From Acephala macrosclerotiorum (taxonomy: Eukaryota > Ascomycota > Leotiomycetes > Helotiales > Mollisiaceae), in the NCBI GenBank assembly GCA_014904845.1, contig MU119316.1, forward strand, positions 104,264 through 168,263: 64,000 nucleotides of DNA, in the 5' to 3' direction. How positions within the stretch are numbered: position 1 is the first letter of the stretch; the number at the start of each line of letters is the position of its first letter. The translations under genes were made by a program, and so were the position numbers. The notes under the pieces were generated by a model. That model did no database searches, had not been told where the DNA came from, and was given only the letters and a program-made list of their open reading frames with translations. This document shows positions 4,730-59,997 of this stretch, in pieces.

Positions 4730-4750
4730 ACGATCAAACGACAAAATCGC
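4730..4750 (+). repeat. Putative left terminal inverted repeat of the 55 kb element
   Basis: ACGATCAAACGACAAAATCG (first 20 nt) aligns with the reverse complement of 59977-59997. It is 15/21 identical, and four of the six mismatches are transitions as RIP would make. It lies exactly where extreme AT sequence changes to the milder interior. TAA (4727-4729) precedes it and TAA also follows the right copy. Confidence 0.45.
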
Positions 4751-7188
4751 ATGCGAAAACCGCGATCGTCGTATCAAATAAAGCGCGCGCACGGGTCGAG
4801 CGCCGCTTTCGCGGAGTATAAAGTTCGTGCGACGTTCTTTTTCTTTTTCTTTTCTTTTTACACAATTCAACAATACTTGTGCTCGCGACGCTAGACTTAC
4901 CTTGTCCACTCCTGTACGCGCTTTGCTTTCGGCCCTTCTATTTAGTCCAAGCTCACTTAGTGAGTTACACTACAATTGAGATTCATGCGTCGAGTAAGAT
5001 TTCTCGATCGCCTCTCTCAAATTTCGATACTGCGGACTTTTTGCGACGCCGATAATCGCTTTAGATTTGCCTCGCATTGACTCAAATACAAACTGAGTTA
5101 GCGCTAAATACTCTCGATTTATTTCGTCGTTGTACTATCACGGATTTTATACTATAATCTCTCGAAGATTGAGATACTGCGAGACTTAGTCTACACGCAT
5201 TGTAATACGGCAGTCAGTTATTGAAATGTTTTATGGTGACGCGATCTGATTTCTGTTTAGTTGCGCCGTTAGTAAATGACGTGTCGAGACGCTTTTTAAT
5301 GAGTTTCTTTGTCGCAGTACGTTTCATATTCGTTTTGATTACGCGGATTTGGATTAAATTCGAGACGACAGAATATCGAACTACGTTCGTTATAAGATTA
5401 GCAATTGAGACATCAAACGACGAGAAAGACTTAGATTGTACCAGTTTGCCTGGAATCTTCGCACGGGCGAATAGAGCAATATTCGAAGTCATGCGATTTC
5501 TTCTCGCGTCAATTGCTCGCATAAGAATTGAGATACCGACGACGAGAATACTTGAAATGTGTAAATCTATTTAAAACCTTCGAATAAGCGAATGCGATAG
5601 TATTCGAGATTATACGACTTCTCTATTTTTTCGATTATTACTACTTTTTTATTCGACTTTTCGCGACCTCGCCAATGATCGAGAAATGATACTAAGATCG
5701 GTCGATTGTAGTGGATAGCGAAGGATAGTAACTGCGGATGGACATTTTTCGGTATAAGAGTGCAAAATCGAAGATCTTAGGATTTTGCAACTGCGGTGAA
5801 TCTCTTTAAGCGAGAGAGAAGTAGTATTGACGCTAAAGCATTTTTGACAGTAAAAAACGTTAAGAGAGAGAAGAGAATGGCACACTAAGAGCGTACAGTA
5901 GGTCGCAGAGCGTATTCCGATTTTGCGAGAGCAGTGCGAGAAACCTAATATGAATTTTTTGATTTTCCTTTTTACTATTTTTCTGTAGTTCGATTTGTGT
6001 AATTAGTAGTGAACCGAGAATTTCTTGAATACTTTCAATCGTTTTTACGCGCTCGAAATAGATACTTTTGCTTTTAAACCGTATATTTATGTGTCAACTT
6101 TTCTACGTTTTAAGAGCGCAATAAACCGTCGCAAACTTGCCTCGAAATCAGTTAATATTTTCGACAAACTCTAGTGCACTAAATCGAGTAATACAAAACT
6201 CAGCACGTCGCAATCAATAGTAGTAGTTAGCGAGCTTGAAATTCGAAGTAAATTCTGAGATCGAGATATTTAGACTAGTAGTAATAGTAATTAACTTTGG
6301 ACATTTGAACAGAGAACGGTATAATTACCGATGAAAACGACGACGATTACGATTTTTTTTTTATCGAACAATTGCTATATATTACGCTCTAGAGAGAAAG
6401 CTTTACAGTAAAGAATCAGCGTTCGAATAATACAGTTTTCAGGATTAAGAATGCAATTGTAAAAAAGAGAAACGGCTCTTTTAATAATAACGAGTCGATA
6501 CTAAGTAGTAACTCAGGCGATAGTTTAAGTGAATACGCTTTTATTACTCTATATCGTGAAAACAGACGACTAGTTTCTCTAATATAGCGTAGAAGATCCA
6601 ATTGTGCAATTGGACAATGACGACTCAAATGTCTCTGAAACCGAAGTCGATGACAATAGTTCTTATATCGAAAGCGCAACGATAGACGAGGACCTTCTCG
6701 ATAATTCAAAGACTATTATCGAGTCGACAATTTCGATCTTTTTCAGCAATTTTAATATATAGTACGATATTAACGATTTTTTTAAAACGGTACAGCGTTC
6801 GCAGCGCTTTAAACGAAAATTTTCGACGTCCGATTTTATACGTTTTTATACTTTTTCTTTTTTTCGTGCATCGAGCGAGTTATTGTACGATTACATTAGT
6901 GCAACAAACCAATATACGGTCTACGCCAGATTCGAGATCACGATATACTCTTTTGCTTATTATTATCAGTTTTCACTTTGTATTAAAGCGTTACCAAAGA
7001 ATTAGTTTATTCATAAGAATTATTTTTACATTAATCGAAATTCAGTAAACGAATACGAGTTGAAAATGCTTAACTCTATACTCGATACCGATCTCGTCGA
7101 TAAAAAGAAGAAATAGTAATAAGAATTGAAATAAAGAAAAAACGAAGTCTATAGTAAGAACAACGAATTGAAATAAGAAATAAATAAT
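4751..7188. other. Left interior segment, no gene recognised, short direct repeats
   Basis: A CpG-dense stretch at 4745-4830 lies just inside the terminal repeat, followed by a pyrimidine tract (4838-4860). The segment starting CTTCGCACGGGCGAATAG at 5457 returns, changed, at 5578 (CTTCGAATAAGCGAATGC), a 121-bp offset. Frames at 5214-5574 are open on both strands at once, so neither can be trusted. Ser/Asp-rich frames near 6450-6720 may be the N-terminal part of the MYB/SANT gene downstream, but they do not join cleanly. Confidence 0.5.
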
Positions 7189-8290
7189 TTGATAATAATA
7201 ATAACGACCGAAAGCGTCGATAGTACTTATTCATTCGACGAAAATGGAAATCTAAGATTAATTGAGCGACAGCGGTTTTTACTTTCTCGCGATCTTTTGC
7301 CAAAATCAAGTTATAACGAGATAAAGAGTCGCAATAATAACGACGAAAAATTTAATGACAACAAAGTCGACTCAAAGAAAAATAATGAAAAATTACGTTT
7401 TATAAAGTGAAAACGATTGTTTTCATTTTACGACGATTTAATGCAAAAAAAGCGCAAATACCGTTTTTAATAAAAGTCTATTTACTAACATAGACTATAC
7501 TCCAAGTACTATCGACGCTCTTTTAAATTTTACTCTTTTTATAATCAAAGTTCGACAATCGCTGCGATTTCTAGTATCAAAAGTCAATTATTTTCGTTAG
7601 CGCCTTTTGTACTACACGCTATACATACAAACATATCGCTCGATTACTACAATTTTAATCGATCGTTCAAAAGCGTTCTATCGACGCTAATTGAAATTAC
7701 GTTCCGTTTACTCTTTTCACACTATTACTTTTTTATAGTAGTAATTCGAGATAATTGTAACGAGTGAAAAATTTCTTTTAATTAAATCGCTCGATTTATC
7801 GAAAGTATCGATTATATAGAGAAGATCGACGATTTTACTATTAAACCGATAAAACAATATTCGTTTTATTTGATTGGTTTTAGTCGGTATACTTTGTTCC
7901 AATTTTCGTTTAATAAAGAAATTGTATCGACGACGCGTTCTCGATCTCAGGATAGTAGAGCTATTAATACTGGGATTTTTACATCGCGAAATAAGTCGTC
8001 AAATAGTGACGACAGTGGATTGAGCGATAGTAATCTCGAGTCTAGTAGCGACGATAACGAGTATTCGAGCGGGGACGAATAGAGCCGTTCGAGCACGAGC
8101 AAGTATAGTCGATGGAATGGCATAGACGAGCAGCGCTTATTAGTATACAAAAAAAAAGACAAGTTTTAGAATTGAATCTTTAAAAAATTTCCAGACAGGA
8201 CTTCGATTGTAGTATACACACGTTGAACTATAGTATAGCGCAAAATCAAATAAACTTCTTTCTATAGATAAATAGACGGCAGTTCAAGTT
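7189..8290 (+). pseudogene. MYB/SANT-like DNA-binding protein, decayed
   Basis: One reading frame runs the full length with only scattered stops. The first ~290 codons are low-complexity, ending in a Ser/Asp-rich stretch (DDSGLSDSNLESSSDDNEYS, about 8008-8070). A C-terminal SANT-like domain follows at about 8110-8250: RWNGIDEQRLLVYKK, then IFKKFPDRTS, then TR-stop-TI. Two of the three conserved Trp positions of the helices read TAG and TGA (KF*N*IF), and the third, after TR, reads TGA. This is what G-to-A change of TGG codons gives. Such a domain usually binds DNA in the nucleus. The gene is the first recognisable one inside the left end of the element, opposite the DUF3435 gene; MYB/SANT genes are, as I recall, recurrent Starship genes at the end away from the captain. 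The true start is not known. Confidence 0.72.
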
Positions 8291-8589
8291 TTATATTTAT
8301 TTGCTTTTAAGTCTCTACTGGAACGAATATCTAATGAGAATCTCGTTTTTCTATCGGTTAGTTTCAACGCGAAAGTATAGTACGATCGAGAGAAACGGCG
8401 TTCAAAGCGAAGAAAATTGAGTATTAATAGAATTGGATAATTATTAAAACAAAAATAGAGACGAGTAAAGTAAAAGCATTGGTTTTCTTACTATGTATTG
8501 TAATAAAAAGTACTAAGATTATTATAAGAATCTTCTCTTGATTTATATTGTATTAAATTTTTAAATTATTTGTATTATTATTATTGTTA

Positions 8590-8762
8590 TTCTTTCAATT
8601 TTTTTTATTTTTTTTCATTTTTCTTTATTTCTTTTTATTTTTTTTCATTTCTTCTCATTTCTCTTTATTTCTTTTTATTTCTTCTCATTTCTTCTCATCT
8701 TTTCTTATCTCTTCTCATTTCTTCTCATTTTTTCTCATTTCTTTTCATTTTTTTTCATTTTG
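8590..8762. repeat. Pyrimidine low-complexity tract (TTTCTYATTTC)n
   Basis: About 170 bp of imperfect TTTTTCATTTC, TTCTCATTTC and TTTTTATTTC units. Open frames over it (Phe/Ser-rich) are products of the repeat, not a gene. Confidence 0.85.
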
Positions 8763-11066
8763 TATTGCATTTTCAAATTCAAACAATAAACTAAAAATAG
8801 AAATAGAAATAGTATTACTACTAGTGAAATGCTTTTTTAAATCCAAATTCCGCGGTTTATTATTTCTCTTATTATTATTTTTATTATCGTTACTTTTTCT
8901 TTAAAACTTATCATTATTTTTAACGTTCAACTCATTGTCAAATGCGTTACACTCTCAATTAATCTAGTATCCCTAATCGGTTTCATAGTTTTAATTGTTA
9001 TCTCTTGTCTCGTTATCGTTTATAGAGACTATAAATATCAAATTTGACGATCTCGACTTAAATAAAAATTTAATAGCGTGAGTATTTATAAACACATCTT
9101 ACTAAGCGATGTTTGCAATTCGCTTTCTTTATATATCGAATACAACTAATGAAATCGTAATCGAAATATTTCGTTTTTCAAAAAGTTTTCTCACAGATTT
9201 CTATTTTCAATTTCAATCGTTTTAATTCAATTTTGACTTCCAATTTCAACGCTTTTCAAGCTATTTATTTCTAAGAATTTTTTCGCGTAGATTCGTATAT
9301 CGATCTATTACGACTAATATTTTGAGATTAGAAAACTTATTATGAAATTGCGTACTTTTAAACTCGTATTTAATAGTATCAATAAACTTCTTTAAATTAA
9401 CGTTAGTAATTATCTCAATATAATTAAACAAACATTAATCAAAAATAAAATCTCGTCGTCAAAATAAGTCTATAAATCGAAAATTGTAAACGTCGTACTT
9501 CGAATTAAAGTAAATTATTCTTTTAGTGTTTTTCGATTATGTTCAAAAGAAATAAATACGATAAAAGTAATCTCGTACGAAAATTCGCGATTTACGATAA
9601 ACGTATAATACGAGAAATATTAAAAGCGAATATATTTTACTGTTTTGAGACTTTAAAAGTAAAAAAGTATTGCTATCGAAAAATCGTAATTGAGAAAAAG
9701 TTTCTTCTCATATCAAATATCGAATTTCGATAGGCAATTTTTAAAAACTAAAGAAACTTTTAATCTTTTTACAATAGTTCAAAAATTTTAAAGCATTTTG
9801 TAATAATTAATTTCTTATTTTAATGTTTTAATTCGTGTTTTTAGAATTATTGATTTTTTTATATTACGCGTTATTATTTGTTTTTATTCTTTTTATATTT
9901 GAGATACTTTCATTGAAATTTAGTACAATATTTTCTTTTAATCGCTTTAAAATTCAAGAGAAAAAAAAATGCTTTGTTTAACTCGATAGATTTCTATAGA
10001 CGACTAATACAAAAATTATACAAAAAACGTTTTTAAAAAATCTCGTGTCAAAATTTATTTGTTTTTTCTCTAATTACTTTCTTTTTCATTTCTGTATTTT
10101 TTTCAATTTTTGCTTTCTACTTTTTTTCGAAGTACTCTACTAACAAATAAAAGATTTCAAAGATTTTATTTAATGCATTTTTTGAACGTCGTAATTCTAC
10201 AATATATAAAAATATAAATAGAAAACAAAAAGACTTTTCGACTATATATTTTCTACAATCAACAAAATTGTCCTTTGAATTGATAATATTCTATACTCTC
10301 GAAGACTCACGAGACTAAAACTTTTATTTGAAAAGAATCAAATCTATAGTTATTATAGAATGTACATTTCGTAGAAAAATGAAATATTGTTTGACGTTAA
10401 TAATATATATTATAAAGAGATTTCAATATATTTCTACAAAACGCATAAAGTAATTTATCAATTTTTTATTTACACTCAAACATACCAAAGTATTATCAGC
10501 GAACTTTGATTACAATTTACTAATATTTTTCAAGTATTCGCCGTTCGAAAAAACGTTTACAATTGAGATCTCGATAAAGAATCTGTCTACAAATTCTGTA
10601 TTTGATTTTATCAATTCCTGCGAAATATTTTTTTAAATACTTTTTTAGAGAAAAAAATCGATTAAAAAAAGTATAAACTATTTTAAATCAATCTCGTATA
10701 CGATTTTCGATTTGAAACGTACATCTAAAATTGAAAACTTTTAATCGACTAATACAATGCTAAAGTATCGCTTTTTAAACTGTTGTGCGATCGAATCAAA
10801 GAAAAATCGAAAGATTTCAAAGAAATCAAACGAAGTATCAAAGAATATCGCGATCGATATTATTCAACGTAGTAAAAACTGTTAAAAGAACAATGTTTAC
10901 TTATTTATATTAGTAATACATAATTCTCATACAAAGACAAAAACTTGCTTTTTCAAGCAATAATAATTAATCAATTACTATTCTGTGCTTTTGAGCGAGT
11001 TGAACAAAGTTATTGCGGAAATTGAGTAGTGCGTCGAGAAATTCTAAAATAATATTACATTGATAC
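8763..11066. other. No gene recognised
   Basis: AT-rich RIP-type sequence. One 64-codon frame at 9539-9733 (plus) is Lys/Ile/Tyr-rich and matches nothing I know. There are no repeats of note. Confidence 0.5.
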
Positions 11067-11788: not shown

Positions 11789-11956
11789 CGAATTTCAAAC
11801 TCAGATCAAGAAATGGATTAAGACTTAAGAATATTTCTCGAGCGCTTTCTACAATTAAAACCAATAAAAAAAAGAGAAACAATTGGTAATTATAAGCGTT
11901 GAACTCATACAATGGAAATCAATAAGCAAATATAATCGAAACACGCTGTATTAATA

Positions 11957-22121: not shown

Positions 22122-23220
22122 TTGAATATACTCTTTATACTCGCAATTCTCGATTTCTTCGCTTTTTCTTTTTTTTCGATAAAGAAAACAATCTCGAGTA
22201 ATTTTTATACTTCGAGTAATATAAATAAAAAATCGAGAAAACCAATCGATTCAAAGAAAAAAGCGAGTAAAACGCCAAATTTGATTATACTAATAATTAC
22301 GATTATCGTAAAATCGAGATATTAATCGATAGTAATTTTGAAAAGAGAGAAAATAGCGCTAGTAATTGCTTCGACGAAGAAAATTACGAAAACGAAAAAG
22401 TCGTCGATATTGATTATAGCGAAAGTACTGTATACTGTTTCTATTGATTTATCGAATTGCATAATAGTAGTATTAACGAGATCGATTATCAGTTTACAAT
22501 TTGGCGATCGAAAGAAGGAAAAGCGTTCGCGAAATAGAGTTACGAGAAAACAGTTTTAAGCGATTGTATTTCTAGCACATAAACAACAAACAGAAAATAT
22601 TGAGAAAACGTATAGAAAAAAGTTTAATCGATTGAAATTTGAAGAATATTGTTTAATTGTTGAGAGATATAGACGTGAACATGTGAACGTATAAGTGCAA
22701 AGAAGATTGCCGTCGTAATAGTCTCACAATCGACCTTGTAATTTGGTCTGAGACTCGGATCGAGTGACTACGCAGAAAAGTGAAACTAAAATAATTGAGT
22801 GCATGCGATTAGCGCATATAGAACTTCGCGTTTTAATTGAAACTTCAATCATTTTTTCATTTTACAATCAAGATCTCGCTTAGATACTTGCTCAAGTTAT
22901 CGATCTATCACTATATCAAATACCGATTTTGACAAGGAATAAGTATACGTTATTTATCGCGAAGTTTTTAAAAATATATTCGCAAAACTAAAAAAACAAA
23001 GTAAAATTCGCAATATAATAAAAAAGTACAAAAATCACTATCAAACAAAAAATAGACTGAATTGAGAGTCTTGTTATATCTCTTGCAAAAAGCGTTTATC
23101 AACTTTTTAAAGATTGTAGTGCGCTTGATTCTAAAGAAAACTTTATTGTTATTATTGATTACTTTGATATTCAAATATTCTCAATCCAGTGCTTAAAAAA
23201 CATTATTGTCGATAGTAATA
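22122..23220 (+). pseudogene. Unidentified decayed gene, ~365 codons
   Basis: One frame spans the stretch with about a dozen stops, nearly all TAA or TAG where Gln would fit. The first ~145 codons are Ser/Lys/Ile-rich and look like a disordered region whose Thr, Pro and Ala codons have been shifted to Ile and Leu. The second half is more protein-like: KTYRKKFNRLKFEEYCLIVE, RYRREHVNV, RPCNLV, then ECMRLAHIELRVLIETS and QILAQVIDLSLYQIPIL. No domain is recognised. Confidence 0.42.
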
Positions 23221-41340: not shown

Positions 41341-43689
41341 GACTATTAGAAATGCTCGATCAAGAAAAAGAAAAAAGAAAAGAAAGTACTATACTTAGTC
41401 TACTTTTGCGATATTTCGAACATTCGACTTTGATTCTAAATCGAAAAACGCTATCTTATTAATCTGAGATTGTATTCTTACTACCTTTGAACATTTGTCT
41501 ACTCAAAGATCGTATAGTGTAGAACAGACGGTCTTAAATGAGATGTTCGCAGTGTATACAAAATCAAAATTTCTAATCGATAGAAACGGTTAAGAATTTG
41601 ATCTTTGCATTTTCCAACGCTAATCGATTCGAAAAGCGTATTCAGTTCTCATTCTAAAAATACTTTTAATTTCTAATCTACACTGAATAAAGAAATAATA
41701 TATATAATTAGTTAAAGTGAATATTTTGAATGCAAACTACTTTTAATTACTTTTTTTTAAAACTACGAAATAATTACATTTGAATTTGCAACTTTTTATT
41801 AAAGAAAATTCTCAAATCGTAGTAGCGAAAGAAATCCCACTATTTTTCTTTGTAGTTCGATGATTCTACGAGAACTTTACTTTTTCTCAATTATTCGTCA
41901 AATCGCTAGAAATATATCACGAGCAATAGACAAATCAGTACGCTTAAATAAGAATCTAAATATTTGAATTATCTATTCTAATAACTCTTCAATTAAAAAA
42001 ACTCGCTCTAGAAATATAAATGCATTTCTATTGTCTGCTTTGTACTATGATTCAATAGTACGCTTCGAGTCATATAATTCAATCTAATTATATCTCTAAT
42101 CTTATCGCGTTGTACTAGTTTGATTTTCGACGTTTGTACAAACAACTTCTTTTTCAAGAAAGTTTTCATTACTAAAAAAGACTACCACGTTTAAATCATA
42201 TTATAATTTATCGAAAGCGATATTTATATAACTTCGTTACGTTTTTCGATTCCGTGGAAAAAGTTCTACGACACTTTTTTACTTTTTTCGCATAATAAGT
42301 AGATTGTAAGTACGAAAAAGTTTATAGTTTGATTTTTATCGTTCGATTTCACTCGCAAAATCTCGTCTTTTATCGTGAATAAAATGACGTTCTTACAAGT
42401 AATACAAATTAACACAATATAGATTTTTCGATTCGAAGAAAAAATAATCCAATTATCTATTTCGAGTTCAAATTAATAAATAATGCGTCAAACAACGAGA
42501 TTTGAAAATTCGATTTCAATCGTATTCAAAGATTGGTACTGTCTACTAACGATCGTATAATGATTCAAGCTTTTTAAATTACTCTCTTTTTAGAATATAG
42601 AAACTACAATTGAATAAATATTAATTAACGTTTATTTCTACGTATCGAAAATCTCTGTATACCGAAAAAAAAAATAAATACTTTGATTTTAAGTATCTTA
42701 AAATCTGTGTATACTTTAATATTTTCTATAATTTTTTATAAGTTATATTTTATAGCCATTTTCGAATACTTTAAATTCCTTCTACTAGAAAATCACGTTC
42801 GTATTATCGCTTTTACGTTTGATTTGCAAAGAGTCTCTTTTTATAGTATAATAGAATTCTTTTATTATAGTTCTACTATCGAGCTTATATTATCTCTAAT
42901 ACTTATAAAAGAGTTTTATTCGAGTTCTAAGGTCTTATACTTATACAGGAAATCGTTATCAGTCTTGTAATTACCGTAGCGCGCAAATTCATATATGATC
43001 GCTACACTGATCTATATCTCGAATTAAAGCGAATAACGATTTTGATTAATGCGAAACAATCTCACAATATTTACGTCGTAATATCAATTATAAAGCTTTA
43101 AATATAAAAACCAATAATAGCTGGAGATACTGTAGTACTAGTGCACTATATTCAACTTAGTAATAACTTTTATGTTTATTTGGCGTAATTAGTCCAAGTA
43201 CGAAAATCGCAAAATCTTGAACATAATAAACTATGTATTTAAAGTCGCATTCAAACTAGTATCCACTTTATCGTCTCGCATTTATCAAAATCTCGCATAC
43301 TAAAAATCTTTAAGCATACTACTAAGTGGCGACTAGACCAGCTCGTACAATGTCTACTACTCTCAAGCTAAATCACCGGAAACTTATTATATACGAATCG
43401 ACACTTAAAAAAAATGCAAATATTATTAATTAAACAACATATTTTGAATTCAAGCTCTTGTTAAGTACTACTTGAAACTCAACAATCGAGACACTTGTAT
43501 TGTCAATGCAAAAAATCAATAGATTCGTAGCAATTTCAATGTCTGTATATCTATCGAGATACGATCGACCCGCTTCTACGAGAAACTTCTCGATACAATC
43601 TATCAATCTCGTCGCGATAAACTGTCTTTAAAAAAGCAAATACTCCGACGAAAGAATCGCGTTTAAATATATTCTGTGACTATTACATA
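41341..43689. other. No gene firmly recognised; may include upstream LINE remains
   Basis: I looked for reverse transcriptase motifs upstream of the LINE C-terminus and found none I can defend. A 95-codon plus frame at 42683-42970 is hydrophobic and Ile/Leu/Phe-rich. The LINE is either 5'-truncated or unreadable here. Confidence 0.4.
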
Positions 43690-44131
43690 AGATCTTACGA
43701 TTATACTATAACTTAAAAAAATAGCAAAGTACTCTACTTATTTAAATGCGCACAGAGAAAATTGAACTAAGAAACTTTCGTAGAAAAGAAGAGTACTGAA
43801 AGTCGACGATCTCGAATGCGACTGCGACGAAGAACGGCAAACTGTAGACTACATTCTATTGAAATATCGAACAAATAATGACGTATAGAGAAGAGTATTT
43901 GAAAAGAAAGAACGAATAGATCTAAAAACAATCTTGAACAAACTAAAATCAATTACAAAAGCAATCGAATTTATGGAACAAATGCGTCTTTTTAAACAAT
44001 TTCGAAGTTGCGATATAGCGCAAAGAGACGAAATGAAGCACTGGAAGAAGACTGAAAGTACGAGAATACGAAGTTTCTTATCGCCGTCAAATTACTCTAC
44101 GTATTTAATTAATAAGAACTCTCTAATTTGA
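43690..44131 (+). pseudogene. C-terminal end of a LINE (Tad1/I-type) reverse transcriptase protein
   Basis: It reads STLLI-stop-MRTEKIELRNFRRKEEY. A single-base frameshift near 43801 follows, then DDLECDCDEERQTVDYILLK, RRVFEKKERIDL and KAIEFMEQMRLFKQFRSC. This is the terminal region of fungal LINE proteins after RNase H: QLRTGKIGLxxFL, then a CxC...H zinc-knuckle-like CCHC (here His has become Tyr, and the last Cys is not seen), then a helical tail. LINEs copy themselves by target-primed reverse transcription. The upstream ORF is missing or unreadable, so it is probably a 5'-truncated copy inside the larger element. Confidence 0.75.
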
Positions 44132-44754
44132 TTATCTTTACTAAAAGCTATTCATTTGAGACTTATATAAATAGTAATCAAACTGAATATTTTAAAAGTT
44201 TCATTCGCGGAAACGAATTCACAATTACATAAAAATAAAAATAGTAAATTAACAAATTGCCAAGAAGTACTAGTAGTCCAATTAACGGTCTACGATCGCG
44301 ATAATAACTTGCGTAGATTTTTGAACGAGAAAAGTTTGAATAGTACTATTGTAATAAATTGTTTTTAATTGTATTTATTACTTGAACTAAGCAAAAAAAT
44401 GTAAATAAACCGTTGTATAAAAACACTTAAACAACGTAGAAAGCGTACGCATAAAGAGATCCTCGAATCCAAAGATTTTAATATCGCGAACATAACGTAT
44501 AAATATAATTAGTTAGTGCGCAGTCTTTGCTATACGAATGTTCTTTATAATTATAATGTTTTTATTTTGAAAAAATACTGCGTATTAGTATATTTGAGTT
44601 GACAGTAACGACTAATAATTAAAGAGATTAAATATCTCAAAGAGAATAATATTCAATTTACTGCGATCGCAAAAAGTACAATTCAATCTTTTAATAATAT
44701 TGAAAGCTTTTATCGAAGTCGCTATTGCGCGAGCGATAGAGTCTCAAAATAATA
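44132..44754. other. No gene recognised
   Basis: AT-rich sequence that may contain the LINE 3' untranslated region; no tail or target duplication is evident. Confidence 0.4.
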
Positions 44755-47030
44755 TTACGCAATACGTCGCAAATTGTAAGAAAATGAAAAAGAATTATTA
44801 GAATCGTCGCTAAAACTCGAAACTCGTTGATTGCGACTAGATCGAATAATACTAAAAAAATTGTGAGAGACTTTGAGCGGGCGAAAGTGAATTAGACTGA
44901 GTGAGAGAAAACGAACAAGAGAAATTGAATCGTGAATTTTAAAACAGTATTCTAAGGAATTGATTACTTTCGCTGACTCAACATTTCCCAAACATTATTT
45001 GGAAATTCGCTATCGCCGATTTATCATTTATTCGTTTCTACGAGCGCATATCCCACTGCAACTCGCCATACTATCAGTGGCAGCGCTAGTAAACCGTTCA
45101 ACAGTACTTCAAAATAACAAACTACAAACGTGTATTTCTAGATTGTTGAGTATCGATAGATGAGTAGAACCGATTCTGTGAAATCTCTTTAGAAAGTTCT
45201 ATTATCGAAGAAATCTCTAGACTATTCGATCAATAGATCGACAGCATCTTCTAAGCGTGTAAATCTCCTATGAAATTCGAATAAACAGACTATTGATTTG
45301 TCTCTTATTTATCACTATCGAGTCGAAATACGCCGCTAGAGAAATGCACTTTTTAATCTTATTATTATACTCGAAGATATTCTTTTCGTCACGATCGCGT
45401 CTAATACTAATACACCGTTTTAGAGCTTTTCTTAACGGCCTGAGAAACGTTCTCGACTAAACAATTACACGAGAATGACGACACGAAGCTCGAATAGAAC
45501 GAAAAAAATCTCTTCATTGAAACGTCGAAACGGATCTCGTTAGAATTCCTCGCAAAAGAAGATCGACTCGCTCAATCTCTCAAACGATTCCGATCACAGT
45601 ACATCTCGAGGCACTTCCACGCAATCGAATAATAATATGATTCTTTCTTCGAGTCAATAACAGAATCAACTAAAGTATTTTCACTCTAATACCTACGGTC
45701 TGACTCGAAAGTATACAAATCGATCGTCCACTAACGATTATTAGTATCATGAAACTGCTGAACAGCTTGATAGAGAAAGCTATAAAAGACTTCTAAAGAT
45801 ATCTAAATTCCCATACCTTTGTCGCACGCTCTACTTTCGAATCTGGCTCTTTTCACCTTTATGCTTTCAAGAAGTATACGTAAAAACATATTTAATATTT
45901 GGTTACTCAAACTACTTCTCTCTATTCAACTCAGCAGAAAATCCCTTAAGACTCAATAACCACGCCGCAAGTTCTCTCTACCTCTTCTTCAGCTCCGCAT
46001 ACTCTGTCTCCAATCGCCTCTGCACTCAATTCTGCTTCCACTATTTCGACGCCTCGACACCTGGTCTCTCGATATACCGCCCTATTATCGGATCCAGTCT
46101 TATAGTATAATCTGCCAATCAAAGTAGCGCGAAACATATTAAATTCGACCGCACAAACATACTTATATTCGTACGCGTATTGCTCGTCGTCTCTCCGAAG
46201 GCGAAGTAATTGAGACTAATAATCATAGATGTGTAGTTCGCGCGGTATAGCGTATGCAATTGTTCTGGCGTGGCTCTCGAGCGTAGCTCCAGTAGCACGG
46301 GACGACATAATATCCACTTATTGATATCTATTGATTGTTGGTCTAGATTAAATCGAAATCATGTGTACAGTGACTTCTTTTGAATATCGAGAAAAATAAG
46401 CGATAGTTCCATTGCGACGTTGCGAAAGTCTTGAGAGAGAGTGCCGTATTGCTCATCGACGGATTTAGCGTAGTACGACCGCATAACTTTATTGGGCCTA
46501 AAAGACCACGTAGAGGAATTTTCGAGCTCGGCGCTGATGTGAGTATGCTTTTTATTGCGTGTGATTCTTCGCCTTATTTTGAGTGCGTCGTCGAGATCAA
46601 AGACGTATTATATTGATCGTAGACCTTTGCTGCGTCTTAAAAGGCCGAATGCAAAGCAAAAACTTTCACTATTGTATTTATCAACTGTAAACGAGCGAAA
46701 AGCCAAGAATCCGATGAGCAAACTATTGATAGCTCTTGAGACACGTCGTCGAAAATTTTCTCTCTCTCTCTATAGAAGAAATACATCGCTAGTCTCAGTC
46801 TCAAGATCGTTATTATATACGCAAAGTCCTATAAATTAAATCGAGTTGTATATCAAAGACTTTTTATTTTCTTCAAACTTCTCTAATAGTACTATAAAAT
46901 CTTACTATAGTTCTTTTGATAAGTTGAGCGCGAAACTCTACACATTCGAGGCCGTAAACAGAGTTTTATTCGTTGCAAGTTCATCGGTTATCCGTTTCCA
47001 AGTCGTTACATTACTACACATATTCTTATA
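44755..47030. other. Less AT-rich block with several competing frames
   Basis: GC content is visibly higher than elsewhere inside the element, especially 45950-46600. The minus frame ending at 45946 has 63 codons from ATG (46135-46137) and continues upstream in the same frame for 27 more (QLLRLRRDDEQYAYEYKYVC, then AVEFNMFRATLIGRLYYKTG, then Glu/Ala/Val-rich EIVEAELSAEAIGDRVCGAE). Plus frames at 46431-46616 and 46555-46839 overlap others. The plus frame near 45480-45620 (FIETSKRISLEFLAKEDRLA, then SLKRFRSQYISRHFHAIE) also looks like protein. I cannot decide which strand was coding, and no family is recognised. Confidence 0.4.
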
Positions 47031-49899
47031 AATAGCTCGAATAGTCGTTCTACTGTTTCTAGTCTATACTAGCCAGCGATTCTCAATAAATCTACGATTT
47101 CGTTAAATTGATAATGCATATCGAACAATCGTAATTGTCGTTACTATAGACAGAGTCAAAACACTAAGTGAATCGTTATTGTTATTCGAGAGAAACGATA
47201 AAACGATCAAAGCGAACGAGACGACGAGTAACGTAGAGATAATTGTTCACTACTAATGCTCGAAACGGGCGATACGGAAACGAAACGTCTACATGCTCTG
47301 ATCTATAGCGACGGCAACGATAGTCGTTACTAGGTCTTGTAGTAGAGATGTTACGACTGCGAGACCGATAAAGCTCTATAGTAAAACTGTGCGATCGGTA
47401 GCGTTGGTAAAGTGAGCCGTGGGACTATTACTAGATAGCGATTAGTATTCGCTTATTGTAACGAAGAAGCAAATAGTGTACAACAACGATAAATACATTT
47501 TAAAAGATTGTTTAAATATCTTGAAAGAGACGTATAGTCTCAATTATTGTATTTACCGATCGCAAAAATAACTAATAAAAGATTTATGATTAATTTCGTC
47601 AAACAATAACAGCGCAAAAAGCGACAAATTCTGCATACTAGTAAGAAAAAAGAAATGCGAAAATGCGTTCGAGTTTCAGTCACAGAACTTGATCTAATGT
47701 CTTGGTAAAAACGAGATAGCGAGATGGCGAAATGAGTAATCTCTCGTTTCTCCAATTTTCAAAGAACGATTATTCGCTTGCAATAGTCATAAAACGTAAT
47801 TATACGAAACATTATTAAATACGTTCTGAATTAGTACGAACTAAACAATTTATCAAAACATATTAGCGAATTCTCTATAATCTCTTTTTACTACAGTTTT
47901 TATCGACTTTTTCTATTCACGTTTCAGAGTATCAGCGTACGCAGCGCGCGTTACTAATTAGAATACGAAGAATTGTTTTAATCTTTTTAATATTATAGTA
48001 TAAATCACGAAATTTGTCATATATTAAGAATTATAAATAATGACGTAATAATCGGAATAATATTAATAAGACTTAAAACTCGAAAATAATTAAAGTATTT
48101 TGTACTTCGTACAGCAAATTTTAATGTAATTATTTACTAATTATTTTTAAACTAAATCTACTTCTGATTTTGGATTTTATTTTAATTTTAATACTCTAAT
48201 TTGAGCTTTGTTATTTCATTTTTGGATTAAAACGATTGAATAGCAACTTCGTATAGAATTAAAAACGTAATTACCTGTAGAAACTTTTAGAAGAACGCTA
48301 TACTTTTACGTAATATCTATAAAATGCGTAATAAAATACGATTAGTGTAATTATAAATACAATATAGAATAAAAACGATAAATTTTTTCTCGTTTATTAA
48401 AATGCTTAGTATTTTGTGTACTTTTTACTTTTGTTCGAATAAATTCAATAGATAGATTTCTTTGTATTTTGTATTTTCAAACCTTGAAATTATATTTGAA
48501 TTCAATAGAAACTCTATATTACGACCTCGAATTTTAGAGACAAATCGATAATTATAATAAAATAAAAAATAATATTTATAGTAGTTTTTTACGTTTTCAA
48601 TAAAACGATCGATAGTATAATCAAACTATAGTATTTTTCTAATTACAAGTCGATTTCTTATAGAGAAATAATTAAAAAACAATAGTAAACTGATTATAAT
48701 TTTATATATTTATATGGTAAAGATTTAAAACTCTCAAATTATATAGTTTTTTCGATACGCAAAGTTTTTCGACACGTAGAAATAGACGTTAGCGAAATAA
48801 AACATAAGTAAAAGTATTCGTACAATCGAGACCGAGTATTCTCGCTCGTTTTTAGTATATACGAATTTTTCTATTCATTATTAATTAATATGAGATAACG
48901 TTATTATACTTTAACGATTTATTTTGTTTCTACGATCTCAATTCAGCGTCGGTTCGCGTTTCAAATTGTAGTGAAAAAAAGCGAAATTCGTCGAAATCTG
49001 CGATAAGAATTACGAAAATATTGAACGATCTTTTGAGATTGATAATTCTCACGCTGTAATCGTTTTAGTAAATTCGACTGTTTTGAAAAAGATCTCGCGA
49101 ATCAAATGATCAATCCAATTTTCCAAAATTATTTCTTTTTATCTCGACGACAATTTTTATGTTCTAGTCAATTCTGAATTTCGCACGCTTAAAAATTATA
49201 CGATTTATCTATATTTGAAAGAATTTTTACTACGAATATACTATTAAAATCAATCGCTTGTCCGATTTAAATCTTTATAAAAACTTTAAAAAAACGTTGT
49301 AAACGATTCAAATTCTCTCTATAATTTATTTGTTTTATAGAAGCAATCGATTTTGATTACCTTTGATAGAGAAGTCTCTATCGAAAGACTTTAAAATAAG
49401 CAGTATCCAGTTTAGACTTTTTCTAGTTCAAATATTTACATTTTAAGATCACGAGATCGCACATTTTGAATAAAAATAATTATCGATATTTGTTTGAAAT
49501 CACAAAGCAACTATTTTTAACTTGCAATTTTTTGATTGAGACTATCTCTCAATTCTAGTAAATACAGAGATTTCACTATTTTCTTTGCAATTCGATTTTC
49601 TTAGTAAAGTCTTATAATCGTTTTTTTATTCGATTCTCAAATTTTTTTTTTTTTTCTTTTTTCTCGAGATCGATCTTATTCTCGCTTTATTTTCTATAAT
49701 CGTTTGTTTTTATCTGTATAGCGAATAATTATTCTCGTTTTCGCTTATTAATTATAGATATTAACTTTGTATATACTATTGTTATAAGTAGTAGTTTCTG
49801 TTTTTTTCTACTTATTAATAGTCTCTTTTTAATTGTTCGTTTTACTAAGTATTTCTTTCTTTTTATATCAAAGCATTTGATCTACCGTTATATTTTTTA
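47031..49899. other. No gene recognised
   Basis: The 47100-47520 part is richer in G and C and opens in more than one frame. A 71-codon minus frame at 47540-47755 (HFAISLSRFYQDIRSSSVTE) has no known match. The rest, 47760-49899, is AT-rich and stop-rich. Confidence 0.4.
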
Positions 49900-50640: not shown

Positions 50641-51410
50641 GTTTTCTATCAATTTCTAATTCTTCTTACAAAGTCATTCGCAGTCTTGAGCACGGTATTT
50701 CCGGTAAAAACCGTGACTATACTAAATAAATAACTTATTCTTTACTCGTTAAATAAATAGTTATTCAATAATTTAACGATATTTGAATAATTATTTGAAT
50801 ATTCAATCAAATGATTCGTAAAATTGTAAGTTCGATCTCGCAATCAATAGAATTGCTCGATTACTTTTTAGTTTTAAATAGAATCTCGTACAAATAGTAG
50901 TACTATAAAGAATTATCATTATTAATACTACTATTTACAGTTTATTTATAGTCTTTATTCTATCTAAAAACGAATCAAATATATCTCGATAACTTTTTAT
51001 TACTTTTTCTAGTCTTTTTAAAAAAAAATTGCACTTTTGAGAATTTTTTCAAACTTCTTCGAAACGGAATAGAATTCTTACTTCTTCTGATTAAAATGCA
51101 CTTATATTACTATTTTACAATCGCTTTAAGAAGAGAATTTTTTCTTTTAAACCTATGAACGCGTTTCTCTTTAAAGATTTACATTCTCTTTACAATCGCT
51201 CCATTTATAAGTCTAATTACTATATAATGATTGTAATATGTTTCTAGTCAAAATATACGATTTACGAGTTTAAATTTATTAATCGTTTTTTGACAAAAAC
51301 AAATAATTACAAAAACTACTATTAAAAATATTATTTAATAATCTCTTTAAACTAAAAAAAAATCGATAAATAATTCAAAATAAAAAAAGCTAGTAAAAAG
51401 TTTCATTTTC
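50641..51410. other. No gene recognised upstream of the hAT relic
   Basis: AT-rich. A BED-type zinc finger would be expected upstream of a hAT catalytic domain and may be hidden here, but I cannot read one. Confidence 0.35.
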
Positions 51411-53386: not shown

Positions 53387-56300
53387 AAGTTTTTAATTGA
53401 AATCGATAATAAAAAAGAGATTTTCTTTGATAAAAATAAAAATATTATTCCGTTTATAATTTCTATTTCTATTGTTTTTAGCGCTACTCAAAATAATTCT
53501 TTTATTATATAATATATTTTTATTTCTCTTTTCAAAAACCGATATTTCTAAATATTCAATCAAAACCGTTTTTTTTCTTCTCAAAATTTATATTCTTATC
53601 GATTATTTAATCCAAAAAATCTTTACTAAATAATACTAATAATATCGAAACCGCGCTCAAAACTGGTCATTCGTTTGTAGTGATCTCGTGAACAAAGAAA
53701 TCGCAAAATCATTTAAATTTCTTTATTGAGTCTCAAAAAGACTTGATTAAAGAATTTTTATACTATATCAAAAGTAGACATACTATGAACTTTTGAGTAT
53801 TGTTTAGTAAACTTCACGAGAAGAGTATTTCTATAGACGACTATGAAAACATTCTTATAATAACTAGTAATTTCGAAATCGCGATATATTTACTATATTT
53901 AAAGCAATTCATTTACGACTATAATACTCGTGAGATTCGCGCTCGTCGAATCTATTTAATCTAATAGATTCGAGACATCGATAAATCGTGACTTTTTTAT
54001 TTTCTTTTGAATAGAAATCTAACAAAACCAGACGTTACAATCGCGGTCTAATCGCTTTTTAACGGTGTATTAAACGAAAATACGCTAGATAATAATTGAA
54101 TACGTATTGCAACGATCGTAATTTTCTTAGTTTTACTAATAGCGAAAAATAGATTCTGATTATTTCGATCTACTGCGAATCGAGCGATATCAGTAAAACA
54201 TTCTTTAGAAAACGTACAAAAGTTTATTCGAGTAAAGCTCTATTGCGAGATATCTTTAAAGCAAAAATTGCAAGAGAATATATTGAGAAAAAGTCGATAA
54301 ACAATATTGATTAGAATACAAAGATACTCGTAGAAAAAGAATTTGAATCTGGAGAACAAACTAAGAAAAATAGTCAATTACTTGTTACAAGTAAATTGTC
54401 CAATCTATCGTTTTGATTGTATTAATAAATAAAAGTGTCTAATATCGACGATATTCGAGATAAGTTACGAAGTATTGTACGAGACTATCTAACGAATAAA
54501 ATGAGTTTTTTTGAATTTGATTATCAATTTTCGCAAAAGTGAAACAAACGAAGTAATTAAATAATATTTCTTATAACGTGATTTAATCTTTCTTTTTTGC
54601 ACTTTTTTTTGCTTTTAAGTAAAATATAATTTTAAATATTATATACATCGAATTGCGCTCATTGTCGTCAAATAATATCTGTGAAAAAAATGCATTAAAT
54701 AAAAAGTAAATACGTGTTTTATAATTGCATCTTTTGAATCTCAAAAACTCTTTTATTCTATTGAAATAGCGTTCTCGATACTTATCGCGACGTATCGTTA
54801 ATATAGCGATACAATAAAAACGATTGTTTCAACGCAGAACTTTGATTGAAACTACTTTCTTATGACTCTAAGAATTCCAGATTTCTAAGACTACTAAATA
54901 ACCCGCCTCAAATGTAAATCGTTTCTAATTGAAAGATCTTAGTTTGAATTGTTATTTGGGACTTTCTATCTAGTCTTCAGACCGTTTCAAGATTCCCATA
55001 ATTACAAAAGGAAATCTGTCGTAAAACGATAAAGTATATAGAATACTTCTCTTACGACAAAAGCCGTTCTAAGTAATTATTTGATTTAGATGACTTGTTC
55101 TAAACATTCGTTTGTTCTAGGACAAATGAATTAAAACAGATTCTCGATTAAAACTATTTACTTAGTACGTTTAGTATACTAAGACTTTTTAAATTACAAA
55201 AACCGTGTTTCATCTAATTATCTATAATAAAACAATTGTTTTAAACTTTATACACCGTAAGTAAAAGCTTTAATCGTCTAAATACATTGATACTTAAAAA
55301 GAATGCGATCAATATTGAAATATTGAAAGTATTACAATATTACCAAGATCGCTTACGTTACAAAAATAGATTGGTTCGCTATTTACGCGCTACTTTACGC
55401 GCTACTATCTATTTATTCAACTCTAATAATAAACTTTTTTTCACGCAATATCGAGTCGAAATTTGATTAACTATATATACGAAGCGTTCGTTTATAAATA
55501 GAATTCTCATTGTCAAAATACGAATAAATATAGTGCTTGTACTATACGTATAAGTAATTGGCGATTTATCGGCGTTTAATGCGACAAGTTTTACTAAATA
55601 TAAAAAAAAAAATCTCGAGTATATATTTTTTTATTTTTTTTTTAATCAAATTTAAAATCAATTTTATATAATTTTCTTAGTAATACTAACTCAAAACACG
55701 TAATATTATCAATTACTACTGTCGTTTCACTAGTAGACTTTCAGCGTTTTACTTTGTTTACGAGTTTCTTTCTCGAAATCCGTTTTATCATATAGCGATT
55801 AAGTTTTTCATTTCGCGTCGTCGAGATTCTTGCATTTAATATCTGCACTAGTTTCTATTCGCAAGTCGCACTTCCAGTTGCACTGCACGTATATCGGGAA
55901 TCGAAATAAGCAATCGAAATACTCTATTTCAATTGTTTCGAGTTATTTCTACAATTTAAAAAAATGCGATTCAATTTCGATCTCAATATTCTCTATTTAA
56001 ATATTAATCAAAAAAAGAAAAATTTCTATCACTTGTTCGAAATTTTAAAAGAAATTGAATTAACGCGTTTAAAATATGTCGCGCTTAATAACGCGTATTA
56101 TACCGAGATAATCGATTTCCATTTGACGATAGCAACTCTAAAAAAAGCATTAAAAACTATAACAAATCTAAAAAAGTTAATAATCGTTTATAACACGAAT
56201 TCAATCTAATAAAACTTAAAGTAAATTGAAAATTTGCATAGAGAGTATTAATAGTTCTTTCAATTCCGTAGTAATTATAGAGTCGATATCAATTAAACGT

Positions 56301-56998
56301 AGATTAGAATACAAAAACACTAGTAAACGACGAGTCTATGTATTACGTTTTACTTCTCTCTAAATATTACCTCTAAAAATATCTCTATTAACGTTGTTTG
56401 CATTTGTATTAACATTCAAATAACGAGTCATCGAACGCTTTTTTGATTTCGGCGTCTCGTAATAATAAAAAATTTCTTGTATTTTACAAAGTCGTATGAG
56501 ATTTTCGACGAAATCGATTCGCACTTGAAAGATTTAATCTTCAATCAAACTATTAAATAGCTCGAAAAGCAATTCAATCGCCGTCGTCCGCTCTTTGAAC
56601 TCGTACTCGATAATCGACAAAGTAAGAATATCTATTAGACGAATACTCTATAATAATTGATCGATTTCGATCGTATAAACTGTTTGCACGTTCGTTAAAA
56701 TTGTAGAAATTCGCTCGTAACGAGTTAATCAACCAGTCAACAACTTGACCACAAGATTTCTTATCACATAACTACTGAAAATACCAAAAACGAGAAATAA
56801 GCAAAAATTCAAATTCGAATTTTCGACTTTAATTTTAAATATACATATAAAAAAGAATAAAAAACGAATAATTACATTATATAAAGTAATACGCTACTAG
56901 CGCCAATCTGTATTTAACAACTTTTAATCGCGAGAAAAAGAAAAAAAAAAGCAAGATTTAAACTATTTAATTATATCGTTTAATACGTTATCGAAACA
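53387..56998. other. No gene recognised
   Basis: An 81-codon plus frame at 55964-56209 starts at ATG and is acidic/basic mixed (HLFEILKEIELTRLKYVALN, TIATLKKALKTI), resembling a structural or gag-like protein piece but unassigned. The stretch 54290-54540 reads partly as protein (SNIDDIRDKLRSIVRDYLTN). The rest is AT-rich. Confidence 0.4.
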
Positions 56999-59220
56999 TT
57001 AGAAAACGATTCTATAGATACTCAGTACGTAATTCTAGAGATGCGTTTTATACTATAAAAACATTTAATAAACTTTGCACTTGAATTGATCTCTTTTTTT
57101 AATATGAATCAAATGTTTTCACTTGAAGTACTTTGTCAAGTCTCTCGAACTAGTAAACTTGTAAATACGCTTTTCGAACGGCAAACTCTATTTCTTTAAA
57201 TAGAGAAAGCAAATAGTAGTTTTTTTCTCGGTAAATACTAATAATATAGCGTCACTTAACGCTTGCTTTTTAGTTTAAACGACTACCAATTGAAAACTGG
57301 TTTCTTTCGACGGTATTGAACTCGTTCGTCGCGTAAACGACTTTTTGCGTAGTAAAGTAGCAGTTCTCTCCTTCTGGAAGTGGCAATAGACAGCGATTAC
57401 ATCGATACTCGCATTGCGACGACAAAACTCTTTTTCAATAGTCGTGCTTGAAAGCGTTATTATCGTCTTCGCTAAGCGTTTTTAGAGCGAAAACATCTCA
57501 TCGTTCTAATTCAAAGTAGTCTTCACGTCTTGACTGAGCTTGAGCCCAGAGAATTGTCGCTCGATCTCGTCGATTGAATGTTCCAAATCCCAGCGCTCTT
57601 GAACGTACTTAAAAAGCGCAGTTTTTAATCGCTGTCTAGTATTGAAAATCGCGCGACCGATAATTCGATACCCAGGCTACCGTGTCGCCGTACTTTAGAA
57701 ACGGCGCTTTTACTTCTCCCGTTTCGCAACGAGACGACGAACGACGAGATCCTAATTGACGAACAGAAATTCCTCGAGTATAAATTCTTACGACCGATTA
57801 AAATCGATTTAGCGAATCATTCGACAAATCGCCCGCATCAAATCGCACTAAAGTTCGTAGTCAGAGACAATAGCTCGCGTATCAATAGTGACCGTTCGCC
57901 GAAAATAGTACTTGATAAAAGTATCAATTTTAGCGTGTTGTATTATCATATTCTAAAGCGCGTCGCTCACGTTATTTGTCAATTTACGATTAGTATATTG
58001 TACTGCGAATAAAAGCGGGATTGCGAAAAAGAAATCGCATAATACGCACTACTCTAATTGAAAGCATTATTTGCACCGTATCGAAAGTAGTACGAACGCG
58101 TAATCTGCAAGAACTTAGTAAGTACACCGAGTCGCTTTATCTATTTCAAGAGAGTCGTGTACAACAATAGTTGGTCGAGTGAAATCTTTTAATCGTACGA
58201 CGTTTTAATAGACTTGCGAAAAACAAAAATATTAATTATTTTCGATTTTAGACGTAAAAGCAACTGCTTATAGTCAGATGGAATATTTAGTTCGCTGATC
58301 CTCTCAATCGATGTAAAACTCGAGATTAAAAACGTATTATCGACAAAAATAAAACCTAAAAAAACGACGTACAAATTGAGAATCAAAGACGAATCAAAAA
58401 TAATCTCGAGAAATACAAACGTATTTCTAGTTTCTATGTAAATTGCATATCTCGATTAAAATAAAAGAAAGAAAAGTTCAAAAGAGATAAAAAAAAATTC
58501 AAAGTTCAAATTTACGTATTTTTTGTACCGAGATATTTCTTCGTAAACTCGCACGTAAACTCGATCAAAATTCAATAAAACTCGTTATTAGAATCCCGAA
58601 GTAAATTCATTGCAATATCACTATAGCGGAGTTTTAAAAACGTTGAAAATCGATTTGCGAAGAATATAATTAGTTGACAAAAGAGACTAATTTGAATCCG
58701 CTGTCGACTATATATATATTTCTGTTTCATCGTGATCAAATTGATCTATAGAACGCTTGCGAGATTCTCGATATATATCGCAACGTTATCGCGCTTTTTC
58801 GTCGACAAACGATACTTCTTCGTCAGTTTTCTAAAAACTTGCGACAAATGTTTCATTAGCTCTCATTTACGATAATTCGAACTAAATTGAGCGAGCAAAT
58901 AAAGAACACTACTCACTCGATGCATGTAACGATTCATTTTCTTTTCGATCTTTTCTTTAGTCGCTCGTTCGTATACGAGTCGAAAAACCTTCCAGTATAT
59001 CCCGAGCGTGCTAGTCGACTAAATACCTACAAGTCTCTTTTCACTTTTCTTCTGACGTTGATTCAATATTTATTCGAAGAAGGCCTTAAAAGTACGACGA
59101 GAGACGGTCTACATTACTCGAGCAAAATCCTTTCGTATATACTTGCAATACTTGTGAAAAAAATCAAATTAGCGATTCGATAGCAGAAGACGACAAGTAA
59201 AAAGAAAATAGAGTATTTAT
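56999..59220 (-). pseudogene. DUF3435 tyrosine recombinase (Starship captain-like), decayed
   Basis: From about 59180 leftward: FARVM-stop-TVSRRTFKAFFE and TSTLGIYWKVFRLVYERATK (core-binding part); TKKYRLSTKKRDNVAIYIEN; SRQRIQISLFCQLIIFFANR, then LKLRYSDIAMNLLRD and EFTCEFTKKYLGTKNT, the DUF3435 signature with the first catalytic Arg (CGA near 58650) kept. After an 89-bp intron: TFVFLEIIFDSSLIL, then VSDAL-stop-NMIIQHAKIDTF and IKYYFRRTVTIDTRAIVSDY (catalytic Tyr region, near 57905), and EIERQFSGLKLSQDVKTTL. Two C-terminal C2H2 fingers follow (TICFLYLKK...KYFK-stop-KH and CKVY-stop-MFL...THL-stop-N), ending at TAA 56999-57001. At ~740 codons it has the usual length. These enzymes integrate and excise giant elements. 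It is the gene nearest the right end and reads inward. At least a dozen stops make it inactive; the exact start is uncertain. Confidence 0.9.
58427..58515 (-). other. 89-bp intron in the DUF3435 relic
   Basis: Donor GTAAAT at 58515 and acceptor AACTAG ending at 58427. Splicing gives GTKNTNTFVFLEIIFDSSL, which matches the family (NTFPIPEIIFDPSL) without interruption. Confidence 0.75.
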
Positions 59221-59976
59221 CGATAGAAATTTCTCTCGATTATATTTAAAAAGAAAAAACTACTATCGCTATAGTTTTCATCTTTATTCTCGAATTCGTT
59301 AGAATTGTTCTTTTGATCGAGATAGTACTCTGACGAGTAAACGTTCTTTTCTCTAGCGATCCACGTCAAATTTGCCTTATTATATCCGTCGATATTATCG
59401 ATATCGATATCAACGTTCGTTCGCTCGATATCGATATTAATTTCCTTTCGCTCGTTTTTTGTATTGAAACAATTCTCGATGTTTGATTTATTACTATCGA
59501 AAAAAAAAAAGTTTAATATTGTTTGACGATATCGTATATCGAATTAATCTATTGAAAGAAACGAAAATAATAACAATAACAATAACGATTAATTCAGAAA
59601 AAAAAAATAAAAATATTGAAAAGAATCTATTGTCCAAAGAATCGTATTAAAAGGGAAAAAAGAAATAAAGCGAAAAGTAATTAAATATAAAAAATTTAAA
59701 GAAAAAAAAATAAAAAAAAAAAAAAAAATAAACAAAAAAATAAAATAATCACCATCTTGAGTCATTCAAAAAATAGTAAGCAGTCATTTTCTACTCCTTG
59801 AAAAGACTCCTCAGAAAGTAGAAACGAGAACAAAAAAGCGATTGTCAATTTTGAGTGGTTCTTGCAATCGACTAGAATCGTACCGCCTTGACCACCAGAT
59901 ACGCGAGCGTTAAAACAGCGCGAGATTTTAGTAAATTGACTGTAAAAAGCAGCGATCAAACCCCCTGAAAACAGTA
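59221..59976. other. Right end of the element, upstream of the captain
   Basis: Presumed promoter or 5' region of the DUF3435 gene. It contains an A-rich tract at 59690-59757 and then a less AT-rich, CpG-holding stretch (59760-59976) with a 65-codon minus frame starting on TTG (RVSGGQGGTILVDC). That frame is probably not a gene, because the start is not credible and nothing continues it. Confidence 0.45.
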
Positions 59977-59997
59977 GCCAATTTACCGTCTGGTCGT
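59977..59997 (-). repeat. Putative right terminal inverted repeat of the 55 kb element
   Basis: On the minus strand it reads ACGACCAGACGGTAAATTGG (first 20 nt), matching 15/21 of the left end at 4730-4750. It is followed on the plus strand by TAA (59998-60000), and extreme AT sequence begins immediately after. Confidence 0.45.

Follow-up and report, generated by a model that had tools for sequence, protein, structure and literature searches.

A captain-bearing element and its borders

The stretch of DNA analysed here, called the window throughout, comprises 64,000 nucleotides of the 69.66-Mb genome of Acephala macrosclerotiorum (C115:104264-168263) and is largely occupied by a decayed element with remnants of a DUF3435 gene at its right edge and of a Myb-like gene at its left edge. 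We put at roughly 93% the probability that this element is a Starship, that is, a giant cargo-carrying DUF3435 element that forms a multi-copy family in this fungus and was inserted as one unit. A first-pass annotation of the window had proposed a Starship-like transposon at 4730-59997, mutated by repeat-induced point mutation (RIP). The features that define the element are the following:

4728-60005, minus strand (captain-first direction): entire Starship-like element, 55,278 bp with nested inserts, delimited by copy edges and empty sites
4726-4727: left GT of a 2-bp target direct repeat, from empty-site alignments; the insertions on contigs C48 and C209 follow the same rule
4730-4744, plus strand: left (3') terminal inverted repeat (TIR), ACGATCAAACGACAA
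6309-8250, plus strand: Myb-like gene remnant at the left edge, inward-reading, located by tblastn with the homologue from C610; Myb domain at its 3' end
34995-36335, minus strand: DUF3723 remnant (Pfam PF12520, E 1.5e-82) with 14 in-frame stops
57005-59552, minus strand: captain (DUF3435) remnant, first gene from the right edge, inward-reading, about 450 bp from that edge
59983-59997, minus strand: right (5') TIR, ACGACCAGACGGTAA read inward, ending at 59997
59998-60005: TAAA plus the variable tetranucleotide TTGA, the extra 8 bp missing from all 27 empty copies read
60006-60007: AT, the right-hand GT of the 2-bp repeat with its G now A, from empty-site alignments and flank base counts

The sharp compositional borders that had been noted earlier are evident, since GC is approximately 0.31-0.39 in the outermost kilobases within the element and 0.05-0.07 beyond it, with drops at about 4.73 and 60.0 kb. 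The imperfect TIRs are equally real: less damaged copies of the family read ACGACCAGACGGCAA at the left end (C361, C610) or at the right end (C87, C409), and both window ends differ from it by transitions only. Queries taken from the right end (2.7 kb) and the left end (3.3 kb) retrieved many copies that begin or stop at the identical base, so that 4730 and 59997 stand as the positions where copies end, whereas the insertion edges lie at 4728 and 60005 according to the empty sites. The captain is terminal, as had been proposed, but the edge concerned is the right one, and therefore the 5' end of the element lies on the right side of the window.

In agreement with a Starship, a DUF3435 captain is the first gene at one edge and reads inward, the ends are discrete with direct and inverted repeats, the insertion lies in an otherwise intact empty site (paralogous; C115, C48 and C209), and 55.3 kb of DNA carries DUF3723 and a SUMO-like fragment as cargo; the size range given for Starships in PMC12134995 is 15-700 kb. 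The Pfam DUF3435 match covers 57395-58772 on the minus strand and holds 10 in-frame stops within this C-terminal part alone. A role of DUF3435 as tyrosine recombinase is taken from PMC12134995; our search of the sequences of solved structures with a captain profile returned no recombinase and nothing else relevant, and the structure predicted for a captain homologue has a mean predicted local distance difference test score (pLDDT) of 44.9, too low to be usable.

The opposite, inward-reading placement of the two terminal genes and the DUF3723 gene between them had been recognised correctly in the first-pass annotation. The left-edge remnant contains 20 in-frame stops, summed over three aligned pieces, and gave no Pfam match in the three plus-strand frames of 4731-9532. 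Homologous open reading frames (ORFs) of two less damaged copies matched PF00249 below threshold (18.0 and 17.6 bits, cut-off 24.4), and a profile built from 20 homologues matched solved Myb structures with a best E of 3.3e-6. Judged by these matches of its relatives, and not provable from the window sequence itself, the gene is Myb-like.

Copies of the family and their empty sites

The terminus scan took in 41 of 68 loci and, with transitions allowed in the ACGACCAGACGGCAA inverted repeat, yielded 17 left termini, among them a divergent member on C54, and 13 distinct right termini. Both ends were present on one contig in five cases (C115, 55.3 kb; C174, 47.3 kb; C209, 63.8 kb; C409, 30.9 kb; C48, 105.3 kb), and in all five the left end precedes the right end in constant orientation, an arrangement expected about once in 1000 by a simple estimate if the ends were independent. 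Short queries against the genome itself matched the interior checkpoint 13001-16500 in C174 (84%), C198 (84%) and C545 (81%), and the checkpoint 38501-41500 in C174 (83%), C198 (85%) and C87 (79%). The spacing from 16500 to 38501 is 22,001 bp in the window, 22,109 bp in C174 and 22,000 bp in C198, i.e. within 2% of the window. C174, which matches the window at both ends and at both checkpoints, is thus a sister copy, and the window copy is longer because it contains two nested transposons. An interior private to the window, or swapped cargo, had been suggested by queries of 17.5 and 16 kb and was discarded when the short queries found C174, C198, C545 and C87; long own-genome queries miss true copies, and the re-test covered these two checkpoints, the interior between them being covered by long queries only.

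Continuous empty sites were recovered for three insertions of the family, including that of the window. The joined flanks of the window align unbroken to at least 40 places at 82-88% identity (from 3617 first candidates), the next match by score reaching 69%. In the 27 of these empty copies that were read at the junction, the left flank passes through (C/T)(G/A)TA(A/G)A into the right flank with no extra bases, and the extra 8 bp occurs in none of them (0/27). The insertion on C48 has 24 such places at 81-89% across the junction, of which 14 were read, all 14 being continuous and 11 having (C/T)GT there, and a single empty site at 85% was found for C209. When the three insertions are aligned, the target runs to GT (AT if mutated), is followed by AAACGACC...GGTCGTTAAANNNN (as read in less damaged copies) and then by GT or AT, after which the target resumes; the element is therefore 4728-60005. 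These alignments show that the window element was inserted as a single unit into one copy of an older AT-rich repeat, beside GT, leaving a 2-bp direct repeat.

Base counts in the flanks follow the same pattern: position -4 of the left flanks is G in 12/17 and A in 5/17, position +9 of the right flanks is G in 10/13 and A in 3/13, and position +10 is T in 13/13, with a background of 3.5% G. The TAA at 4727-4729 is an ambiguous repeat apparent when empty sites are ignored; a target duplication of 3 bp, TAA, is what all ends found display, but it was rejected, since the empty sites favour GT and right flanks resume after the carried 8 bp with GT or AT, TAA being present in only some. A G+C content below 19% characterises 15/17 left and 12/13 right flanks, and an all-against-all comparison of the flanks revealed no repeat in common. 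The flanks of the window and C48 insertions belong to two high-copy AT-rich repeats, unlike each other in that comparison, several members of which lie near contig ends. The copy on C361 (L043 3894-4577) adjoins a 2EXR-family ORF (E 4.2e-19) in DNA of 45% GC, and its left flank is the sole one of 17 above 23% G+C.

Several observations weigh against this account of the insertion. A 19-bp unit missing from the left flank of the window is present in 25 of the 27 empty copies read, only two of the 27 match that flank, and one of these two (L095) reads GTAAATTAAT at the junction, one base off. In several long-form empty copies TAAATTGAA occurs about 30 bp upstream, in view of which the window junction may have undergone a local rearrangement. 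No empty site was found for C174, where matches other than itself reach at most 71% across the junction in long matches, a value at the background level of AT-rich DNA, nor for C409 in a crowded query. Moreover, the empty sites are paralogous repeat copies from one strain, and none is allelic.

Cargo, nested transposons and RIP-type decay

The remaining features of the window are:

1081-4727: left flank, AT-rich RIP-mutated DNA of 6.7% GC, its final 400 bp part of a high-copy repeat
23040-23162, minus strand: SUMO/Rad60-SLD-like gene fragment, cargo (Pfam PF11976, E 1.6e-6)
42629-48788: nested TIR element of about 6.2 kb with imperfect TIRs, missing at this spot in C174, C198 and C87
50681-53665: nested hAT-like transposon of about 3.0 kb, missing at this spot in C174, C450, C282 and C87
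60008-64000: right flank, AT-rich, its initial 400 bp continuing the repeat interrupted at the left flank

The Pfam scan covered both strands of about 9501-55599, the plus strand only of 4731-9532 and the minus strand of 55001-59802. In the scanned frames NLR, patatin and ferric reductase had no match, DUF3723 being the only Starship accessory gene found, and weak matches to SRF-TF and MIOS were set aside as below cut-off. The nested TIR element had no Pfam match in six frames. The hAT-like transposon is bordered by an 8-bp duplication, GTCATTCG, at 50673-50680 and 53666-53673; 10 further near-full-length copies are among the matches listed, and the window copy is RIP-mutated. The tract at 33000-35000 is rich in pyrimidines, and its plus strand holds open frames of 144 and 233 aa that are Ser/Leu/Phe-rich; long low-complexity repeats were set aside as AT or pyrimidine tracts. 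Positions 1-1070, which adjoin the AT-rich isochore, are unmutated, have 43% GC and contain repeated GACACCCCCTGGGACCCCC motifs.

The right 2.7 kb of the window differs from C87 by 589 transitions and 3 transversions in 2695 sites, and of these 592 changes 569 are C-to-T or G-to-A when C87 is taken as the starting sequence. Together with the sister copy C174, this upholds the proposal that the whole element was duplicated and then decayed in the manner of RIP. By context, the mutated fraction relative to C87 is 214/347 for CC, 176/383 for CT, 139/312 for CA and 40/438 for CG, corresponding to rates of 0.62, 0.46, 0.45 and 0.09, and in C115, C174 and C450 pooled CCG and CCT rank highest (0.58) and CAA ranks lowest outside CpG (0.23). 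Decay is greatest in the flanks, where G+C is 6-7% and about half of the remaining C stands in CpG and almost none in CpC. The CpG/CC skew is elevated in 28/28 bins of the element, ranging from 3.5 to 21.6 compared to 1.1-1.3 in three little-damaged copies, and extends over both nested transposons; RIP therefore probably acted after these had entered.

The composite RIP index (CRI) lies near zero: bins of 1 kb along the element range from -0.28 to 0.53. As the decay spares CpG and favours CpC, this CpA-based index misses it. Of the RIP recognised by the first-pass annotation, the C-to-T form holds, with transitions in repeats and on both strands, but the usual CpA context was not seen, and our claim is therefore one of RIP-type decay and not of classical RIP: a RIP-type process converts C to T outside CpG over the whole 55 kb, the nested transposons included. 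In Botrytis and Sclerotinia RIP has been described at CpA together with CpT (PMC4352252). The window resembles these fungi as a further leotiomycete case of C-to-T mutation beyond CpA and differs in that CpC is the most and CpG the least mutated context, CpC not being mentioned in the text of PMC4352252. Because the standard index misses a spectrum of this kind, counts of RIP-hit Starships may be too low in such fungi.

The damage caused by RIP is itself no clock. Transversions between the window and C174, taken over both ends, amount to 4 in 5960 sites or 6.7e-4 per site (95% interval 1.8e-4 to 1.7e-3), which suggests that copying was recent, about 0.1-1.0 million years ago (range 0.03 to 2.6), if mutation is assumed to proceed at 1e-9 to 1e-8 per site per year with transversions contributing one third. 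Since the copies are young by this measure and the family also has members with hardly any damage, the earlier description of the element as a fossil is too strong; the transversion clock illustrates that an element of fossil-like appearance can still be young.

The captain-end tetranucleotide and relationships to known elements

The four bases that separate TAAA from GT at the captain end vary among copies as follows:

TTGA: window
AAAC: C174, C450
ATGC: C87
TTGT: C282
AATC: C314
AAAA: C209
TAGA: C409, C237, C48, C348
TAAA: C247, C238

Ahead of GT the target reads ATTC at both the window locus and the C48 locus, and AATA at C209; as these letters differ from the carried ones, the tetranucleotide does not derive from the present target. 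Between C115 and C174 it has transversions at 3 of 4 sites, compared with 2 in 2694 sites alongside, and among five near-identical sisters the pairwise counts are 0-3 per 4 tetranucleotide sites versus 2-9 per approximately 2,695 adjacent sites (P <=0.015, uncorrected, for 9 of the 10 pairs, the remaining pair C174-C450 being equal). A crossover region whose sequence travels with the element would explain this variation. Bacterial tyrosine-recombinase elements of the Tn916 type have 6-bp coupling sequences, and the captain-end tetranucleotide is perhaps, by analogy, such a coupling sequence. The captain would recombine the excised element, probably in the form of a circle, with a target that contains GT. 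The chemistry would be that of tyrosine recombinases, acting through a short crossover region of about 6 bp, and the tetranucleotide would be the crossover sequence acquired at the previous site. The junction of the excised circle would then read GGTCGTTAAA-NNNNGT-AAACGACC, with NNNN from the donor site, and an unoccupied target would read TTCGTAAAATAATA, without TAAATTGA. The terminal Myb protein may bind the element, perhaps at its 3' end. We offer only tentatively, and as less likely than not, the proposal that a crossover region NNNNGT of roughly 6 bp is cut by the captains of this family and that the NNNN of the former site is brought to the new one, as in Tn916, with a dedicated 3'-terminal Myb protein in the transposition machinery. 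If correct, each element would retain a 4-bp record of its site of origin.

A number of data speak against a coupling sequence. At C209 the carried tetranucleotide and the target differ by one transversion only, C174 and C450 carry identical letters, and TAGA is common to C409, C237, C48 and C348 even though the ends of C48 and C409 differ by 55 transversions in 2491 sites; such constancy within another, diverged group speaks against free exchange and fits a fixed element end better. Unlikely, but to be taken seriously, is the alternative that the tetranucleotide belongs to each target and that a longer target duplication has been masked by later small deletions in the low-complexity flank, for which the occurrence of TAAATTGAA close upstream in several long-form empty copies and the abundance of slippage-prone short repeats in the flanks could be cited. 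It requires, however, that indels arose separately to the left and to the right of the window insertion and that C48 independently underwent something equivalent; all 14 empty copies read for C48 are continuous, and 11 of them have (C/T)GT where the flanks meet. When the genome was searched for the continuous form, 3 pattern matches were obtained versus 5 for a reversed control.

Far less probable are two alternatives to the element and to its decay as such. Ordinary mutation or a heterochromatic base composition, and not RIP, could be held responsible for the AT bias, given the near-zero CRI and an outlier dinucleotide that is CpG instead of CpA, but this is very improbable, because the changes between copies are almost solely C-to-T or G-to-A, obey a neighbour rule and vary by copy, with a GC of 0.16 to 0.58 at the same end. 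The least credible alternative, which the empty sites contradict, is that a DUF3435 element on the right and an unrelated Myb-bearing element on the left bound the region by chance. Single ends do occur on 8 of 13 right-end and 12 of 17 left-end contigs, and C227, C337 and C95 hold Myb copies for which no such terminus was found. Nevertheless, left and right ends stand together in one order and orientation in all five two-ended contigs, many copies reach the borders exactly, C174 and C198 have the interior checkpoints in common, the sequences of the two termini form an inverted-repeat pair, and in the empty sites the outer flanks are continuous where the window has the whole 55 kb between them.

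Hexamers that agree between left and right ends (for example AAACGT at the left of C198 and at the right of C174/C450) could be read as a pedigree of jumps, but this was rejected, as about 5 chance matches were estimated by hand. C198 and C450 may, besides, represent both halves of a single insertion, since their matches abut at window position 49136/49140, although the match of C282 begins there too.

Both terminal genes have named homologues in Calycina, Hyaloscypha, Cadophora, Lachnellula, Geoglossum and Trichoglossum, among others. In three foreign cases captain and Myb homologues are listed with equal longest-contig values (88414, 70923 and, in Bisporella sp. PMI_857, 56003), and the two genes therefore probably share a contig outside A. 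macrosclerotiorum too, as read from listings and not from contigs. Rhexocercosporidium, Calycina marina, Hyaloscypha and Trichoglossum hirsutum have captain pieces with 87-92% identity across 41-80% of the query, an identity that hints at horizontal transfer.

In the Starship literature searched, neither a terminal Myb gene nor a carried tetranucleotide acting as coupling sequence was found, though either may be described elsewhere, and CpG-sparing RIP on a Starship was not met, no search having been aimed at it; within that literature the end structure, the terminal Myb gene and the CpG-sparing spectrum look new. A single genome here offers many ends of one Starship family and dozens of surviving empty copies of the target repeat, which makes the insertion rule legible at single-base precision; the rule points to testable recombination chemistry.

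The likeness to Tn916-type elements consists in a variable sequence of a few bases at one end that mismatches the target. Those elements are bacterial, whereas a tetranucleotide with a fixed GT is seen here, known from inserted copies alone. With the Starship superfamily, as portrayed in PMC12134995, PMC12506042 and PMC12153272, the element shares a 5' inward-reading captain, TIRs with a short direct repeat, DUF3723, variable cargo and a size of tens of kb; it differs in that the copies seen have a Myb-like gene at their 3' edge, in the GT repeat and variable tetranucleotide at the captain end, and in its targets, 27 of the 30 flanks read being below 19% G+C. Starships of the Phoenix family have the direct repeats TTTAC, TTTACT and ATTAC according to PMC12257634, and the 3' junction of the window element, read captain-first, is GGTCGTTT|AC, i.e. 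TTTAC; only the AC is target-derived here, and the likeness is one of repeat sequence alone. RIP-mutated derelict Starships are known from P. variotii and Spiromastigoides (PMC11623301), from the Fusarium Limos elements, in which transitions likewise far exceed transversions (PMC12257634), and from the GtA elements (PMC12134995). In contrast to these, the A. macrosclerotiorum element was mutated in a CpG-sparing, CpC-favouring context, and its sisters, little-damaged relatives and empty sites are found together in one genome.

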